64,000 nucleotides of DNA from contig NZ_JACHVB010000060.1 in NCBI RefSeq assembly GCF_014230085.1, positions 62,001-126,000 on the forward strand. Direction: 5' to 3'. The notes beneath the pieces were generated by a model. The model saw nothing but the letters and a program-made list of their open reading frames with translations, searched no databases and was not told the origin of the DNA. Position 1 is the first letter of the stretch, and the number at the start of each line of letters is the position of its first letter. This document shows, in pieces, positions 28,251-34,793 of this stretch. The translations under genes were made by a program, and so were the position numbers. Source of the stretch: Ruficoccus amylovorans. Lineage in GTDB: Bacteria; Verrucomicrobiota; Verrucomicrobiia; Opitutales; Cerasicoccaceae.

Positions 28251-28794
28251 GGTGGTCGGTTGGTCAGGGTTCGAGAAGTGAGCGGGGCGATCAGCGGTCT
28301 TGAACCGGAATGCCCCTGATTCCGGCACTCCCGCAAACTCCAAGACCAGCACGAGCTACCCCATTAACATCCGGGCCCGTCCACCTCGCTTCAAGCCCAA
28401 TAAGCAGCCAAATCATTATCAAAATCGCCCACCGCAAAGAACGCCCCGGGGTCACCTGTCGGCAAACCGGGAACATTCTCGCCGTTCTGTACGTCGCAGG
28501 AAGCATACAAGCGCCGGAAGACGAATCATCCGCAATACCGGCCCCGAAACGGGCTTCGCCGGAGGCGGCAAGAAAAGACTGGTTTCGCCGGGGCAAAACC
28601 TCTATCAGTAACCGTCTTGGCTCTATCTGCCCACTCGGCAGAGGGAGCCCTTTGGTGGGCAACCGCTAAAGTACGCCTCAACGGCGAAGTTCATGGATCA
28701 TTTGCCAATTCGAGTCATCTTACCAATAAGTACCTAGAAGCACCGGCACCAACAAGGACCTGACGGCAACGAACGTCTAACCAGGAAAATTTGC
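28251..28794. other. 544-bp gap upstream of the E1-KAS III fusion gene
   Basis: The gap separates the divergent DUF1961 and fusion genes. Small GC stems occur near 28625-28665 (GCCCAC pairing with GTGGGC), but I match them to no known riboswitch. A candidate promoter lies at 28702-28730. No reading frame here looks coding. Confidence 0.5.
28702..28730 (+). promoter_or_regulatory. candidate sigma-70 promoter for the fusion gene
   Basis: TTGCCA (28702-28707), a 17-bp spacer and AATAAG (28725-28730) lie 65 bp before the start codon. Five of six and four of six positions match consensus. Confidence 0.4.
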
Positions 28795-31700
28795 TTGAAG
28801 CAGCCACTGCATACATCTTCCCACATCGCAGAGGGGGCAGACGCCACCAGCGTTGACGCTGCCCTGGCGCTCTACCGCTGGATGCGCCTCTCGCGTGAAA
28901 TCGAACGCCTCGAAGCCCGCCTGATCAAGCGCGGCGAAGCCTTCTTCCACGTCGAATGCGCCGGGCACGAGGCCATGGCCGCGCTGGCGGAGTTTCTCGG
29001 CCCGCAGGACTGGCTCCACTGCCACTACCGCGACCGCGCCCTCCAGCTCGCCCGCGGGGTGAAGCCCGAGGCCATCTTCGACGCGCTCTTCGGCAACGCC
29101 CGCTCCAGTTCCAAGGGACGGCAGCTCAACACCATGCACTCCGACCGCGAGCTGCATGTGATGACCATGCCCACCGCCGTCTCCAACAACCTCCTGCCCG
29201 CCGTCGGCGTGGCTGCCGAGGTCAGGGACCAGCCCGAAAAGCCGCTCGTTTACTGCTCCGTCGGCGATGGCGGCACCCAGCAGGGGGATTTCTTCGAGGC
29301 TGTGGCCGAGGCCGTTCGCAATAACCTGCCCGTCCTCTTCGTCGTGCAGGACAACCACTTCGCCCTCTCCACCGTGACCGAGGGCAAGACCTTTTACTCC
29401 CTGCCCGGCGGCAAGCACTACGAGCTTTTCGGCCTGGAGATGACCCGCCTCGACGGGCGCGACGCCCTCGCCGTGCGCGACGGCTTCAAGCAGGTCTGCG
29501 CCAAAATGCGCGAAGACCGCGGCCCGGCCCTCGTGCTGCTGGAGGCCGAGCGCCTCGGCAGCCACTCCAACGCCGACGACCAGAGCCTTTACCGCACGCC
29601 TGAGCAAATCGACCAACTCGCCCGCGAGGCAGACCCGGTCGCCCTCCTCGCCGGAAAACTGGCCGAACTCGGCGTCTCCGAGGACGACATCAAGCGCATC
29701 GACGAGGAATGCCGCCGCTGCGCCGAAGAGGCCGCCGACGATTCCCGCAAGGTGCCCGCGCCCGCCCTCGCCCCTGAGGTCAAGCGCCCGCTCTCCTCGC
29801 ACTACCTTTCCAACAAGGAATACACCGGCAAGGCCGGAAAGGCCGAGCTGTCCATGCGCGAGTCCATCCTGGAAGTCTTGCGCCAGGAACTGGAAACGAA
29901 CCCCGCCGTTAGCCTCTACGGGGAGGACATCGAAGACCCCAAGGGCGACGCCTTCGGCGTGACCAAGGGCCTCTCCACCGCCTATCCCGGCCGCGTGTGC
30001 AACTCCCCGCTGGCCGAGTCCACCATCATCGGCACCGCCATCGGCCGCGCCATGGCCGGGGGCCAGCCCGTTGCCTTCGTCCAGTTCGCGGACTTCTTCC
30101 CGCTCGTTTACAACCAGTTCCACAGCGAGCTGGCCATCACCTACTGGCGCAGCGCCGGGGAGTGGGAATGCCCGGTCATTCTCATGGTCTCCTGCGGCGG
30201 CTATCGCCCCGGCACCGGCCCGACCCACACCCAGACGATGGAGGCCATCGCCGCCCACAGTCCGGGCGTGGATGTCTTCATGCCCTCGAATGCCGGGGAT
30301 GCCGCCGGAATGCTCCGCGCGGCCTTCGCCTCGCGCCGCCCCGCCGTCTTCTTTTACCCGAAAAACCTCCTCAACAACCGCGGCCTGGGCACTTCCACCG
30401 ACATCGACCGGCACTGGGTCCCCGCTGGACGCGCCCGGCTGAGCCGTGAGGGGACGGACCTCACGCTCGTCGGCTGGGGCAACACCCTCCCGCTGTGCGA
30501 AGAAGCCGCCGAGGCCCTCGACACGCTCGGGGTTTCCAGCACCGTGATTGACCTGCGCAGCCTCAGCCCCTGGGACAAACCGCTCGTGACCAAATGGGCG
30601 GAAAAGACCGGCAGGCTCGTGGTTGTGCACGAAGATTCGCTTTCCTACGGGCCGGGCGCGGAAATCTGCGCCGGGGTCGTCGAGGCCGCCCAAAGCCCCG
30701 TGGCCGTCCGCCGCGTGGCCCGGCCCGACACCTACGTGCCCTTCCACTTCCCCAGCCACCTGGAGACGCTGCCCTCGGTGCGCAGCATCGTCACCGCCGC
30801 CGCCGACCTGCTCAAGCTTGAGCTCGGCTGGAAGCGCGAAGCCGGGGACGACGACCAACTCTTTACCATTGAGGCGCTCGGCGTCTCCGCCTCCGACGAC
30901 TCGGTGACCGTGGCCGAATGGCTGGTCGAGCCGGGCAAGGAGGTCAAGGTGGACGACGTGCTCGGCGTCTTCGAGTCCGACAAGGCCGCCGCCGACCTGC
31001 TCTCCCCGCAGAGTGGCACGGTTGAGGAAATCCTCGTCGAGGCCGGGGGCACCGTCCGCGTGGGCACACCGATCCTGCGCCTGCGCGTGGCCAACGAAAT
31101 TGCCGCTGCTGCCGACTCCGCCCGCCGCGTCAAGGAAACCCCGTACCTGCTTTCCGAACCGGAAAAGCCCGCCGCCGAGGCCGCTTCCACCGTCGAAGCG
31201 CCCGCCATTGTCAGCCCGAAGACGCACTTCGTGGGCATCTCCGGCATCGCCTCGTCGACGGGCACGCGGCAGATTTCCAACGCCGAGTTGTTAAAACTCT
31301 TCCCCGACAGCACGGAGGAAAAACTCATCCGTCAGTGCGGCATCCACTCGCGCCCGTGGGTCTCCAAGGGCGAGAACGTCCTCACCCTGGCCGTGGACGC
31401 CGCCACCCGCCTGCTGAGCAAGACCGACCTGCCCGTCGAAAAGCTCGACCTGATTATCTGCTCGACCACCACCCCGGACATCGCGACGCCTTCGCTCGCC
31501 TGTCGCCTGCTGCACGCCATCGGCGGCGACTACGAATGCCCGGCCTTTGACATCAGCGCGGCCTGCTCGGGCTATATTTACGGCCTCGGGCTGGCCCACG
31601 ACTTCCTGCGCGGTCGCCCGGACGCCCGCGTGCTTATGGTCACCTCCGAGGTGATGAGCCCCCTGCTCGACATGGAGGACTACGACACGGCCATCCTCTT

Positions 31701-32181
31701 CGGCGACGCCGCCACCGCCACCCTGCTCGAAGGCCCCGCCGTCGCGGACAAGCCCAAGCTCTGGCTACACCGGCCCGCCCTCGCCGCCGAAGGCGAGACG
31801 GGCGAGTTCCTCTCTGTGCCGCTGCCCGACCCGAAGACCAAGATCTCCATGAGCGGAGGCAGGGTCTTCCAGAAGGCCGTGCGCAAGATGCGCTACATGC
31901 TCGAAACCGTCTGCGAGCAGTGCGACACGCCTCCGACTTCGCTGGAGGGGATCATCCCCCACCAGGCCAACGACCGCATCCTCGACGCGGTCGCACGCCA
32001 GCTCCACATTGAGCCCGAGCGCGTCTGGCGCAACGTCAAGCTGACCGGTAACACCTCCTCCAGCTCCATCCCGCTATGCCTGGAAGAGAACCTGCACCGC
32101 ATCAGCCCCGGAGCCAAGTACGGGCTGGTCGCCTTTGGCGGCGGCTACACCTACGCAGGCGCTATCGCCCACGGGGCCTGA
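28795..32181 (+). CDS. E1-alpha/E1-beta/lipoyl/KAS III fusion enzyme
   Basis: 1128 residues, starting at a TTG with AGGA 8 bp upstream. Residues about 20-320: E1-alpha of a 2-oxo acid dehydrogenase, with the thiamine-diphosphate motif GDG at 157-159. About 350-680: E1-beta (AESTIIGTAIGRAMAGG). About 690-770: lipoyl domain with Lys730 in ESDKAAADL. About 812-1128: KAS III with the full triad Cys924 (SAACSGY), His1056 (IPHQAND) and Asn1086 (GNTSSSS); these are spaced 132 and 30 apart, exactly as in E. coli FabH (112, 244, 274). No E2 acyltransferase motif (HxxxDG) or E3-binding domain is seen. Inferred role: decarboxylate a 2-oxo acid, carry the acyl on lipoate and condense it with malonyl-ACP as a chain starter. 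E3 must come from elsewhere. Confidence 0.9.
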   Translation: MKQPLHTSSHIAEGADATSVDAALALYRWMRLSREIERLEARLIKRGEAFFHVECAGHEAMAALAEFLGPQDWLHCHYRDRALQLARGVKPEAIFDALFGNARSSSKGRQLNTMHSDRELHVMTMPTAVSNNLLPAVGVAAEVRDQPEKPLVYCSVGDGGTQQGDFFEAVAEAVRNNLPVLFVVQDNHFALSTVTEGKTFYSLPGGKHYELFGLEMTRLDGRDALAVRDGFKQVCAKMREDRGPALVLLEAERLGSHSNADDQSLYRTPEQIDQLAREADPVALLAGKLAELGVSEDDIKRIDEECRRCAEEAADDSRKVPAPALAPEVKRPLSSHYLSNKEYTGKAGKAELSMRESILEVLRQELETNPAVSLYGEDIEDPKGDAFGVTKGLSTAYPGRVCNSPLAESTIIGTAIGRAMAGGQPVAFVQFADFFPLVYNQFHSELAITYWRSAGEWECPVILMVSCGGYRPGTGPTHTQTMEAIAAHSPGVDVFMPSNAGDAAGMLRAAFASRRPAVFFYPKNLLNNRGLGTSTDIDRHWVPAGRARLSREGTDLTLVGWGNTLPLCEEAAEALDTLGVSSTVIDLRSLSPWDKPLVTKWAEKTGRLVVVHEDSLSYGPGAEICAGVVEAAQSPVAVRRVARPDTYVPFHFPSHLETLPSVRSIVTAAADLLKLELGWKREAGDDDQLFTIEALGVSASDDSVTVAEWLVEPGKEVKVDDVLGVFESDKAAADLLSPQSGTVEEILVEAGGTVRVGTPILRLRVANEIAAAADSARRVKETPYLLSEPEKPAAEAASTVEAPAIVSPKTHFVGISGIASSTGTRQISNAELLKLFPDSTEEKLIRQCGIHSRPWVSKGENVLTLAVDAATRLLSKTDLPVEKLDLIICSTTTPDIATPSLACRLLHAIGGDYECPAFDISAACSGYIYGLGLAHDFLRGRPDARVLMVTSEVMSPLLDMEDYDTAILFGDAATATLLEGPAVADKPKLWLHRPALAAEGETGEFLSVPLPDPKTKISMSGGRVFQKAVRKMRYMLETVCEQCDTPPTSLEGIIPHQANDRILDAVARQLHIEPERVWRNVKLTGNTSSSSIPLCLEENLHRISPGAKYGLVAFGGGYTYAGAIAHGA

Positions 32182-32293
32182 GCTTATACCGGTACAGACA
32201 AAAGCTTATATTTACTATCCACTGCGTCTGTGATACAGAAGGCCTGCTCATAATTCATTGACTTATCCCAAGTAATAGTGCTTGTATGAAATC

Positions 32294-32815
32294 ATGCATT
32301 TACCCCCCAGACGCATACTTTGTCTCTACCTTGCACTAGCCCTCTGCACCGGAGCTCAGGCTGCGATTACCATCAACTTCGTTCTCAGCGGCTCAAGCAC
32401 TGACTTTACTGCGGTTTTTACCGTCGATAGCGCTGCCGTCAGCCCCAGCGACCACAGTTCAATATTGTCCATCTCAGTTGAAGGGGCAGGTTCATTCGAA
32501 CCCGTCCAATACTACGCAGGTACTTCGGGCTCGATCGGTTACTACAACGCATCTTTTACCAGTGGGTTCTACTTTGATTCTCTCGATTTTTACGAATCCA
32601 TACAGTCAGGCAACACATGGGAGGAAATGGACGGCCAGAGCTACGCGATAAACAACGGTGGCAGCACTACTATGTATGCCGAAGGCGGCAGCGCCATCTC
32701 GGCGACCGGCGGAAGTATCGCCATCAATATCGTCCCTGAGCCCGCTACCTACGCTGTCGGGTTCGGTCTGGCCGCTCTCGCTCTGCTCTGGTTGCGCAAG
32801 AGGCGGCACACCTAG
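32294..32815 (+). CDS. small PEP-CTERM anchored secreted protein
   Basis: 173 residues; ATG at 32294 chosen because the signal peptide follows (ILCLYLALALCTGAQAA). The mature part is a short, low-charge beta domain rich in Ser, Tyr and Gly. The end is a textbook PEP-CTERM signal: VPEPATYAVG, a hydrophobic helix, then RKRRHT. A strong terminator follows at once, so this is a single-gene unit. No domain recognised. Confidence 0.87.
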   Translation: MHLPPRRILCLYLALALCTGAQAAITINFVLSGSSTDFTAVFTVDSAAVSPSDHSSILSISVEGAGSFEPVQYYAGTSGSIGYYNASFTSGFYFDSLDFYESIQSGNTWEEMDGQSYAINNGGSTTMYAEGGSAISATGGSIAINIVPEPATYAVGFGLAALALLWLRKRRHT

Positions 32816-32881: not shown

Positions 32882-32946
32882 GCGTACCGCCCAACAAACG
32901 CGCAATCAAATTAACTAATTCAAGGACATCTCTATATAAATTTTAC

Positions 32947-32975
32947 TTGACACATTTTCGTCTCGCCCCTACGAC
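32947..32975 (+). promoter_or_regulatory. candidate promoter of the cobalamin riboswitch transcript
   Basis: A perfect TTGACA (32947-32952), a 17-bp spacer and TACGAC (32970-32975) would start RNA near 32982, just before the aptamer. The -10 is weak (three of six). Confidence 0.45.
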
Positions 32976-32999
32976 TGCGCCCGCTACATTCAACAGCCA

Positions 33000-33112
33000 A
33001 CAGCATCGGGGAAATCCTGTGAGAAACAGGAGCTGACGCGCAACTGTGACCGGACCCCAGTCCCGGGAGCCAGAATGCCCGACAAACAGACATCTTCGCG
33101 CTAGGGATGTCG
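33000..33112 (+). ncRNA. cobalamin riboswitch (compact form)
   Basis: The core reads GGGGAAATCC, then AGGAGCTGACGCGCAACTGT, close to the conserved btuB-type cobalamin aptamer, with the 3' B12 box as GAGCCAGAATGCCCGAC. Helices seen: TCGGG (33006-33010) with CCCGA (33078-33082) closing the core; TCCTGT (33015-33020) with ACAGGA (33026-33031); a hairpin at 33050-33066; and GACATC (33089-33094) with GATGTC (33106-33111). The last loop, TTCGCGCTAGG, can pair with the ACGCGC of the core loop, as the known kissing interaction requires. The large P6 insertion of long forms is missing. It lies upstream of the exchanger gene at 33186, which it should switch off when B12 is present. Confidence 0.85.
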
Positions 33113-33185
33113 GTCGCACGGCGTGCCGCCAGTCAATGGAGGCAGGTTGGGGGCCGGTATTCCGGGCTCTCACCAGACAACCAAC

Positions 33186-34793
33186 ATGCCGAGCGACTTT
33201 TTCCAAACCATCCTGAGCAATCCGCTGCTGGCCCTCTTTGGGCTCATCGGCCTCGGGCTCGCCTTGGGCAGCATCCAGATCAAAGGAATCACCCTGGGCT
33301 CCTCCGGCGTGATTTTCACGGCCCTGCTGGCCGGGCACCTGGGCTGCACCATCCCGGCCGGGATCGGTAGCGTCGGCCTGGCGCTCTTTGTCTACTGCGT
33401 CGGGATCAGCGCCGGTAACCGTTTTTTCGGGGCGCTCAAGCGAGAAGGCAGCCAGTTGGCCAAGCTCGCGCTCGTCGTTGTCGGCTCAGGGGCACTCACG
33501 ACCTGGGCGCTGGCCAAGTTCTTCCACATTGATGCGGCCATGGCCGCCGGGGCCTTCGCCGGGGCCATGACCAGCACCCCCGCGCTCGCCGCCGCCACCG
33601 AGGGCAGCGGAGCCGCCGGAACCGATGTCGTCGTCGGCTACGGGATCGCCTATCCCTTCGGCGTCATTGGCGTGGTGCTCTTCGTCCAGCTCATCCCGAA
33701 GCTACTCAAGCTCAAGATCGAGGAAGACTCCGCCGAAACCAAAGGCGACTCCGCCGCTGCCATTGAGCGCCGCCTGGTCGAAGTCCGCAACGAGAACCTC
33801 TTTGGCAAACGCCTCGGGGACAGTAGTCTTGCCGACCTCGGCGGCTGCCAGGTCTCCCGCATCTGGCGTCACAACCGCCTCGAACCCGTCAGCTACGAGG
33901 ATGTCTTCGATGCCGGGCAGCTCGTGCTGCTGGTCGGCGCGCCCAAGGCGGTCAAAATCGCCACGGAGCTGATCGGCCGGGTCAGCGACCGCAACATCGT
34001 CCTCGACGCCGATAACGAGCGCCGCCAACTCGTTGTGACCCAAAAAGAGCTGATCGGAAAAACCCTGGCCGAGATCGACCCGCTGCGTAACCACGGGGTC
34101 GTCGTCACTCGCATCAGCCGCCTGGACTTCACCTTCGTGCCCGACATGAAGACCCGCCTGGAAAAAGGTGACATCCTCACCGCCGTCGGCGCGCAGGACA
34201 AGCTGGCCGCTTTCGGCGAAGCCATCGGCCATCACACACAGGCGTTTTCCGAGACCTCCCTCGCCTCGCTCGCCATCGGACTCGCCCTCGGCGTGGCGTT
34301 GGGCAAGCTGAGTGTCCCCCTGCCCTGGGGTGACACCTTCTCGCTCGGCCTGGCCGGGGGACCGCTGCTCGTGGCGCTCCTGCTCGGGCACTTCGGACGT
34401 GTGGGCGGCGTCGTCGGCTACATTCCCCGGCCCACCCGCGTCCTGCTTCAGGAGATGGGACTGGTGTTCTTCCTGGCCGATGCCGGGATCAAGGGCGGTG
34501 CTTCTATGGGACAAGCGATTCAGACGCAGGGGGCGGAGATTTTCCTCGTCGGCGCGCTCATCAGCATCGTGCCGATGGTCGTCGGCTACATCACTGCCCG
34601 CAAGATCATGAAACTGACCGTGGCCCAGAGCCTCGGCGGGATCTGCGGCGGGATGACCAGTACTCCCGCGCTCGGCGCCATCGTGTCAAAGACCCACCAG
34701 CAGGCCCCGATCGTCAGCTACGCGACGGTCTATCCGGTCGCCGTCATCATGATGGCGTTGCTGGCCAAGTTCCTGATCAAACTCATCGGCTAG
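33186..34793 (+). CDS. AspT/YidE/YbjL-type exchanger under B12 riboswitch
   Basis: 535 residues from the ATG at 33186; a TTG at 33147, in frame and preceded by GGAGG, is an alternative start. Two homologous membrane halves (about 10-170 and 350-535) each carry the repeat GAMTSTPALAA or GGMTSTPALGA. Between them lie two TrkA-C domains (about 195-345; LFGKRLGDSS, LIGKTLAEID). This is the layout of the aspartate:alanine exchanger family. Substrates of most members are unknown. The cobalamin riboswitch upstream suggests a job in uptake of a corrinoid precursor or in handling a metabolite of a B12-dependent reaction. Confidence 0.9.
   Translation: MPSDFFQTILSNPLLALFGLIGLGLALGSIQIKGITLGSSGVIFTALLAGHLGCTIPAGIGSVGLALFVYCVGISAGNRFFGALKREGSQLAKLALVVVGSGALTTWALAKFFHIDAAMAAGAFAGAMTSTPALAAATEGSGAAGTDVVVGYGIAYPFGVIGVVLFVQLIPKLLKLKIEEDSAETKGDSAAAIERRLVEVRNENLFGKRLGDSSLADLGGCQVSRIWRHNRLEPVSYEDVFDAGQLVLLVGAPKAVKIATELIGRVSDRNIVLDADNERRQLVVTQKELIGKTLAEIDPLRNHGVVVTRISRLDFTFVPDMKTRLEKGDILTAVGAQDKLAAFGEAIGHHTQAFSETSLASLAIGLALGVALGKLSVPLPWGDTFSLGLAGGPLLVALLLGHFGRVGGVVGYIPRPTRVLLQEMGLVFFLADAGIKGGASMGQAIQTQGAEIFLVGALISIVPMVVGYITARKIMKLTVAQSLGGICGGMTSTPALGAIVSKTHQQAPIVSYATVYPVAVIMMALLAKFLIKLIG

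Follow-up and report, generated by a model that had tools for sequence, protein, structure and literature searches.

A single-chain fusion of 2-oxo acid dehydrogenase E1, a lipoyl domain and KAS III in Ruficoccus amylovorans: a candidate CoA-independent starter-unit synthase

Introduction

In the textbook route, branched fatty acid synthesis is initiated by converting a keto acid to an acyl-coenzyme A (acyl-CoA), which is then used by FabH. From Photorhabdus, the BkdABC system is known. It is reported to form a 5-methyl-3-oxohexanoyl thioester and, on expression in E. coli, to give branched fatty acids; its BkdB protein carries an acyl carrier protein (ACP) domain that needs a phosphopantetheinyl transferase (PMC4578411, PMC4901931, PMC3838401; like all papers cited here, drawn on in excerpt). 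FabH itself has been described with branched acyl-CoA (PMC5011732). Here, a single gene is described that lies at 28795-32181 (+) of a 64,000-nucleotide stretch of the Ruficoccus amylovorans genome (contig NZ_JACHVB010000060.1, positions 62,001 to 126,000), referred to as the window. The protein joins a 2-oxo acid dehydrogenase E1, a lipoyl domain and a ketoacyl-ACP synthase III (KAS III) in one chain, with KAS III in the place where related proteins have their E2 acyltransferase. Judging from its domains and conserved residues, it is probably a self-contained, CoA-independent starter-unit synthase, in which the acyl group of a 2-oxo acid would pass over lipoate to the KAS III cysteine and from there into 3-oxoacyl-ACP.

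Domain architecture of the fusion protein

The gene codes for 1128 residues in an open frame without interruption. It starts with TTG, as do the open frames of two loci of the same genus (L007, L008) if their first start codon is taken, and AGGA at 28783-28786 (+), 8 bases 5′ of the start and read by eye, is its likely ribosome-binding site. With a Pfam threshold of E <= 0.001, the E1-alpha domain is found at residues 28-323 (28876-29763, +; PF00676 E1_dh, E 4.8e-44), followed by the two domains of E1-beta, i.e., the pyrimidine-binding domain at residues 351-527 (29845-30375, +; PF02779 Transket_pyr) and the transketolase C-terminal domain at residues 545-655 (30427-30759, +; PF02780 Transketolase_C). 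The lipoyl domain spans residues 704-763 (30904-31083, +; PF00364 Biotin_lipoyl) and the KAS III domain residues 812-1124 (31228-32166, +; NCBIfam PRK09352, Foldseek 4z19); within the latter, Pfam places ACP_syn_III at 918-980 and ACP_syn_III_C at 1041-1124. At the same threshold, no 2-oxoacid_dh (E2), E3-binding or phosphopantetheine domain was found in the protein.

The residues needed for each activity are conserved. Lys730 (30982-30984, +), which belongs to an SDKAA motif and is predicted to be lipoylated, is a lysine in 45/45 members of alignment A3, and Glu408 and His478 of E1-beta are each invariant in the same 45. When E. coli FabH is aligned with the C-terminal part, its C112, H244 and N274 pair with Cys924, the condensing nucleophile (31564-31566, +), His1056 (31960-31962, +) and Asn1086 (32050-32052, +), all three present in 45/45. 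Because of this pairing, the FabH spacings of 132 and 30 residues hold, as a first-pass annotation made from the DNA letters had stated. Its list of parts (E1-alpha, E1-beta, a lipoyl domain with Lys730, KAS III and no E2) agrees with Pfam and with the conservation among the 45 aligned fusions, from genomes with seven phylum labels: E1, lipoyl and KAS III domains were found in all of them, and E2 (PF00198) and PP-binding domains in none.

With a threshold of E <= 1e-5, 25 NCBIfam families match the window protein, and none of them extends over both of its halves. The KAS III part passes PRK09352 with 258.2 bits (cut-off 249) and stays below the curated FabH model TIGR00747 (226.5 vs 292.1 bits), while the E1 models listed for the protein are all under their cut-offs. 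Structurally, the best Foldseek match is FabH (4z19, TM score 0.93, target-normalised), and the E1-beta of a Thermus branched-chain 2-oxo acid dehydrogenase follows at rank 17 (1um9_B, 0.93). An AlphaFold2 model built from 45 sequences has a mean pLDDT (predicted local distance difference test) of 87.9, with values under 50 at residues 1-11, 769-776 and 787-810. The last two stretches belong to the linker between lipoyl domain and KAS III (residues 769-810; 31099-31224, +), and such low values are what would be expected of a flexible tether. The linker is variable in length, with 34-74 residues (median 41) across 45 members for stretch 766-811. By sequence, the protein thus appears as a 2-oxo acid dehydrogenase with an E1 of the thiamine diphosphate (ThDP) type and a lipoylatable lysine, lacking the E2 catalytic domain and predicted to carry a thiolase-type KAS III fold with its Cys-His-Asn triad.

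KAS III in the position of E2

What normally follows the lipoyl domain can be read from thirteen E1-lipoyl proteins of order-mates (L011-L023). The C-terminal ends of seven of the 13 were inspected, and all seven show an E2 catalytic domain, marked by DHRWxNG, which we take to be the E2 catalytic motif, and in 10/10 such genomes scanned, PF00198 lies in the same long frame as E1 and lipoyl domain. Since these sister proteins end in E2, KAS III occupies the E2 position in the fusion.

In a tree of E1 sequences (57 rows), 36 fusions form one clade with a support of 100 in the SH-aLRT (Shimodaira-Hasegawa-like approximate likelihood ratio test). Its neighbour clade (support 99) holds the 13 E1-lipoyl-E2 proteins and two Streptomyces E1 proteins. 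In the KAS III tree, the 28 fusion rows likewise group together, to the exclusion of the separate KAS III proteins (support 99). Moreover, the distances of the E1 and KAS III halves correlate among 45 members (Mantel r 0.83, with 0/999 permutations as high). Both trees come from quick searches with a simple model and chosen rows, and the finer branching was left unused because long branches may meet. Taken together, the two clades and the correlation are most simply read as a single joining event, after which both halves were inherited or transferred together.

Loss of the CoA clamp and retention of the condensing triad

In FabH, the adenine of CoA is stacked between Trp32 and Arg151 (PMC4606726). 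At the position of E. coli W32, Trp occurs in 0/96 fusions, a set that includes near-identical and hence not independent sequences, vs 55/56 separate FabH proteins, the remaining one having Phe. The fusions have D (57), A (21), E (11), K (3), G (2), S (1) or Q (1) instead. Similarly, the Arg151 position holds Arg in 0/96 fusions vs 49/56 free FabH. The 56 include fifteen from genomes that lack a fusion; three fusions cut by the locus end (L259, L261, L262) and two proteins that are not FabH (L004, L260) were left out. In the window protein, FabH positions 32, 151, 36 and 28 are Lys, Tyr, Gln and Ser.

The residues for condensation are retained. Cys-His-Asn is the FabH triad for decarboxylative condensation, and the 96 fusions have Cys in 96, His in 96 and Asn in 95, with one gap. 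The R249 position is Arg in 96/96; in FabH this is presumably the residue on which ACP docks. At position 87, Thr is found in 87/96 fusions and Phe in 36/56 FabH proteins, and we take Thr to be compatible with a larger acyl pocket.

Distribution of the fusion

Among the genomes of 54 relatives (its own included), the full fusion is present in five: R. amylovorans itself, three genomes of the same genus (87, 88 and 53% identity to the window protein) and Cerasicoccus arenae KCTC 12870 of another genus of the family (51%). Thirteen of the 54 match through E1 and partly the lipoyl domain only, in open frames of 1005-1140 codons, and the other 36 show none at a threshold of E <= 1e-100. A scan of 387 genomes of the phylum gave 63 matches, consisting of 34 full fusions, two partial ones (G102, which starts at the contig start, and G163) and 27 that end before KAS III.

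Beyond the phylum, the genomes of named species were scanned and the best 80 of 258 relatives were considered. All of these 80 reach KAS III, L123 being cut near the contig end. After removal of identical stretches, 79 remained, labelled Planctomycetota (24), Spirochaetota (18), Kiritimatiellota (14), Verrucomicrobiota (12), Pseudomonadota (7), Lentisphaerota (2) and Sumerlaeota (1), with one lacking a label. The bearers are mostly metagenome-assembled genomes (MAGs), whose labels may be wrong, while Rhizobium rhizogenes OV677 and C. arenae are named strains. The architecture is thus found under at least seven phylum labels, which answers the search for the same domain order that the first-pass annotation had proposed.

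The Kiritimatiellota order Kiritimatiellales (including G420, G136 and G174) has a match in 39/43 genomes, 32 full-length and seven in pieces, and its near-complete genomes have the full-length fusion in 22/22 cases. Another order of the phylum matches in 8/9 genomes, one of them partly, and in 5/5 near-complete ones. In an order examined in a separate scan, 2/396 genomes bear the full fusion, one being the genome from which that scan started. No relative was found on viral contigs. Of 127 plasmid records with a match, none reaches 80% query coverage with E <= 1e-50, and searches of the open-licence PMC literature aimed at the fusion listed no paper on it.

Some bearers deviate in other respects. 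A MAG named Rheinheimera tuosuensis (L132 / G452) has the fusion but is possibly misnamed, since E1-alpha/beta frames of about 700 codons are what many of the genomes listed for its order have. The fusion frames of L069 (G130) and L049 (G059), with 1521 and 1339 codons, have N-terminal extensions.

Other E1, E2, E3 and FabH genes in fusion genomes

Besides the fusion, the draft genome of R. amylovorans (97.8% complete) contains a two-subunit E1 of the pyruvate dehydrogenase (PDH) type, an E1 frame of 923 codons resembling 2-oxoglutarate dehydrogenase (OGDH) and a trace below the cut-off, but, as far as the draft shows, no branched-chain complex apart from these. Its two E2 matches are on contigs C32 and C12, alongside other E1_dh matches and not on the contig of the fusion. 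G085 and G420 have no E1_dh match other than the fusion.

An E3 (TIGR01350) is above the cut-off in R. amylovorans and in 37/38 genomes of a wider set, including all 23 that bear the fusion. The same 23 have an additional KAS III frame besides the fusion, and FabH is above the cut-off in 22/22 further fusion genomes. As FabH is also present, the fusion would add a second route to chain start and not replace FabH.

Proposed mechanism

From these features, we infer the following series of steps. ThDP in the E1-alpha/beta module would decarboxylate a 2-oxo acid, and the acyl group would reductively acylate the presumably lipoylated Lys730. The linker would let the lipoyl domain swing to the KAS III of the same, probably dimeric, protein, where Cys924 would receive the acyl group straight from the arm, so that neither an E2 acyltransferase nor free CoA is involved. 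KAS III would then condense it with malonyl-ACP to a 3-oxoacyl-ACP that enters type II fatty acid synthesis, and a dihydrolipoamide dehydrogenase acting in trans would reoxidise the lipoyl arm with NAD+. E1 is a tetramer and KAS III a dimer; a homodimer of the fusion would contain the equivalent of one E1 tetramer together with a KAS III dimer, so that the stoichiometry fits.

Fatty acid initiation is, in our estimate, a rather likely role. As to the substrate, 2-oxoisovalerate may be named as the most likely one; it would give 4-methyl-3-oxopentanoyl-ACP. The major acids of cultured Kiritimatiellota include C18:0 and several of i-C12:0, i-C14:0, i-C16:0 and i-C18:0 (PMC7356697, PMC10880615), and such an even iso series is what an isobutyryl starter would be expected to give. 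The fusion is present in G424, G441, G130 and G085, which are tentatively P. desulfatans, P. sulfatireligans, T. aerotolerans and P. agarivorans, respectively. Of the first-pass annotation, the architecture and the idea of a CoA-free transfer are supported by the E2 position, the loss of Trp32 with triad and ACP-docking Arg retained, and the wide occurrence, while the product has been narrowed: it had allowed branched or odd lipids, of which branched ones are the better guess in view of the lipid reports on Kiritimatiellota.

Gene neighbourhood

For 100 loci (L050-L149), some of which are the same contig twice, the genes up to about 8-10 kb away from the fusion were clustered, and the clusters were named by Pfam on one member each; the crude gene caller yielded no fusion for L059, L066, L070 and L110. 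Recurring neighbours are proteins of the phosphoenolpyruvate-utilising/GAF type (17 loci), aconitase (13), NeuB-like (10) and thioredoxin-like proteins (10), bacterial microcompartment (BMC) shell proteins (8), AcrB-like proteins (8) and short-chain dehydrogenases (SDR; 7). Among the 100 loci, no neighbour recurs across phyla and the recurring ones are lineage-bound. A function for the fusion based on its gene cluster was dropped, because no neighbour is common to several phyla. In a Rhizobiales genome (AFS084704), a fatty acid hydroxylase (PF04116) lies just upstream of the fusion (L146:6748-7740, +), and R. rhizogenes OV677 (L148) has a like protein in the same place.

In the window, a PEP-CTERM protein is encoded directly 3′ of the fusion gene (32282-32815, +). 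Further downstream, at 32942-33100 (+), there is a likely cobalamin riboswitch (RF00174, 27.6 bits against a gathering score of 31.5, E 3.1e-5), just 5′ of an Asp-Al_Ex/TrkA_C permease gene (33123-34793). No Rfam match in the window reaches its gathering score.

Evidence against the proposed function

Several observations weigh against a CoA-independent starter-unit synthase for branched fatty acids. Firstly, the loss of the CoA clamp in the fusions is not clean. Trp is found at the neighbouring position 28 in 50/96 fusions, where it might stack the adenine instead, and Arg36 is retained in 82/96 (Gln in the window protein). Moreover, Arg151 is also missing in 7/56 free FabH, and the free KAS III proteins L004 and L260, which are not FabH, likewise have no W32.

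Secondly, the link between lipids and fusion depends on the tentative strain assignment of the four Kiritimatiellota genomes. The link is not seen in the family of the window, since the predominant acids described for Cerasicoccaceae are C14:0 and C18:1w9c, and iso acids are not stressed in the excerpted description (PMC10288369). As Coraliomargarita and Lacunisphaera anatis are also reported to have iso-C14:0 among their major acids, iso acids need not stem from the fusion.

Thirdly, the fusion is absent from five members of the family of the window, and G285, a member of the phylum counted among the 34 full fusions, is interrupted by a TGA within the part that matches; this sequence (L036) was excluded from alignment A1. 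Lastly, in part of the Pirellulaceae, the fusion is flanked by thioredoxin-like and BMC shell genes of the same orientation, an arrangement left unexplained by the proposed function. The thioredoxin-like gene, of the AhpC/TSA type, is just upstream (L099:1-1401) and the BMC shell gene just downstream (L130:10069-10692). Because they share the strand of the fusion, a local operon is possible in these bacteria.

Alternative explanations

The best surviving alternative, although unlikely, is that the fusion makes the starter for a secondary metabolite (a resorcinol, a stilbene-like compound or a polyketide) or for another special product. Precedents exist: Photorhabdus BkdABC serves stilbene and photopyrone besides iso fatty acids, according to the same excerpts, and Streptomyces has a related E1 beside a polyketide synthase/non-ribosomal peptide synthetase (PKS/NRPS). 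BMC and SDR genes, moreover, recur next to the fusion within some lineages. However, neighbour genes never recur across phyla, and the fusion is present in every near-complete genome of one order (22/22); the hydroxylase of L146, with its counterpart in L148, also speaks against this explanation. The DarB and StlD models match 35 and 37 of the 45 aligned members, with best E values of 9.4e-12 and 9.7e-13 vs 5e-83 for PRK09352, and are not among the 25 families found for the window protein at E <= 1e-5. A resorcinol or polyketide product, which the first-pass annotation had offered as an option, thus finds little support and was rejected as the principal product on the basis of neighbours, which are lineage-bound and, as far as identified, not polyketide genes, and of the NCBIfam matches, DarB not being one of them.

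A slightly less probable, equally unfavoured explanation keeps CoA as the link. The E1-lipoyl part would borrow an E2 from PDH or OGDH to form acyl-CoA, and the fused KAS III would be an ordinary FabH supplied with it by channelling. All 38 genomes examined indeed have E2 matches, the KAS III fold is FabH-like according to Foldseek, and many fusions have Arg36 or a Trp at position 28, at the frequencies given above. Against this stand the lack of an E2 domain in 45/45 fusions, the absence of Trp32 for CoA stacking in all 96, and the fact that KAS III has taken the very position that E2 has in the sister proteins.

It is more doubtful still that KAS III acts purely as an acyltransferase, which would move the acyl group from lipoate to ACP or another acceptor and would not condense it. 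Acylating ketosynthases are known from cervimycin, xenocyloin and nonactin (PMC4578411), and the E2 of the sister proteins is itself an acyltransferase, but the fusions retain the condensation triad almost without exception (Cys 96, His 96, Asn 95 of 96). An assembly error, a frameshift (both named by the first-pass annotation among its refuting cases) or a recent non-functional fusion is refuted for the window by the open frame, by conservation in the genus and across phyla and by the invariant active sites, the same fusion in three same-genus genomes and one of another genus leaving no place for a local frameshift or assembly join and nothing in its favour except the TGA in the relative G285.

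Significance

With a CoA-independent starter-unit synthase as the preferred explanation, we incline slightly towards a broader view, in which the fusions would be a widespread class of 2-oxo acid dehydrogenases with an acyl acceptor that forms carbon-carbon bonds instead of E2, and in which one CoA-free enzyme would both decarboxylate the keto acid and initiate fatty acids, and so determine which iso acids of even chain length Kiritimatiellota and other bearers make. If this is true, free acyl-CoA is skipped, two enzymes are coupled covalently and the starter pool becomes independent of CoA and of competing FabH. This could explain the even iso acid signature in the lipids of a whole bacterial group, and a single gene could be transplanted for the production of branched fatty acids. 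It also raises the question how a condensing enzyme evolved to accept an acyl group from lipoate. As the fusion occurs under at least seven phylum labels and no matching NCBIfam model covers both halves, its function would affect the naming of genes in many genomes.

Comparison with known systems

The canonical pathway of a branched-chain keto acid dehydrogenase (BCKDH) or PDH with a separate FabH has oxidative decarboxylation, carriage on a lipoyl group and chain start by a KAS III in common with the window protein. It differs in that acyl-CoA is released through E2 and used by a FabH that keeps Trp32 (55/56 FabH here). The verrucomicrobial proteins L011-L023 share the order of E1-alpha, E1-beta and lipoyl domain with the fusion, but have a C-terminal E2 acyltransferase where the window protein has KAS III.

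On two Streptomyces plasmids, an E1-alpha/beta gene precedes a PKS/NRPS (L181:14929-32064 and L182:9929-22188) with lipoyl, E2, ACP and KS domains in its first 1400 residues, so that a lipoate-borne starter on a modular assembly line seems possible from the domain content. These loci share the domains for a lipoyl-borne starter, here at the head of the assembly line, and their E1 belongs to the clade next to the fusions. In contrast to the window protein, they keep E2 and ACP, and their KS is a ketoacyl-synt domain (PF00109) and not a KAS III.

The two-in-one 2-oxoglutarate dehydrogenase OdhA of actinobacteria has two complex components on one chain, as does the window protein; it joins oxidative decarboxylation with succinyl transfer, a condensing enzyme not being mentioned in the excerpt (PMC10415282). 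The nearest known system, compared by its excerpted description only, is Photorhabdus BkdABC, a 2-oxo acid dehydrogenase system with a condensed 3-oxoacyl thioester as its reported output. BkdABC consists of three genes and includes an ACP domain, whereas the window protein is one chain that has neither ACP nor E2.

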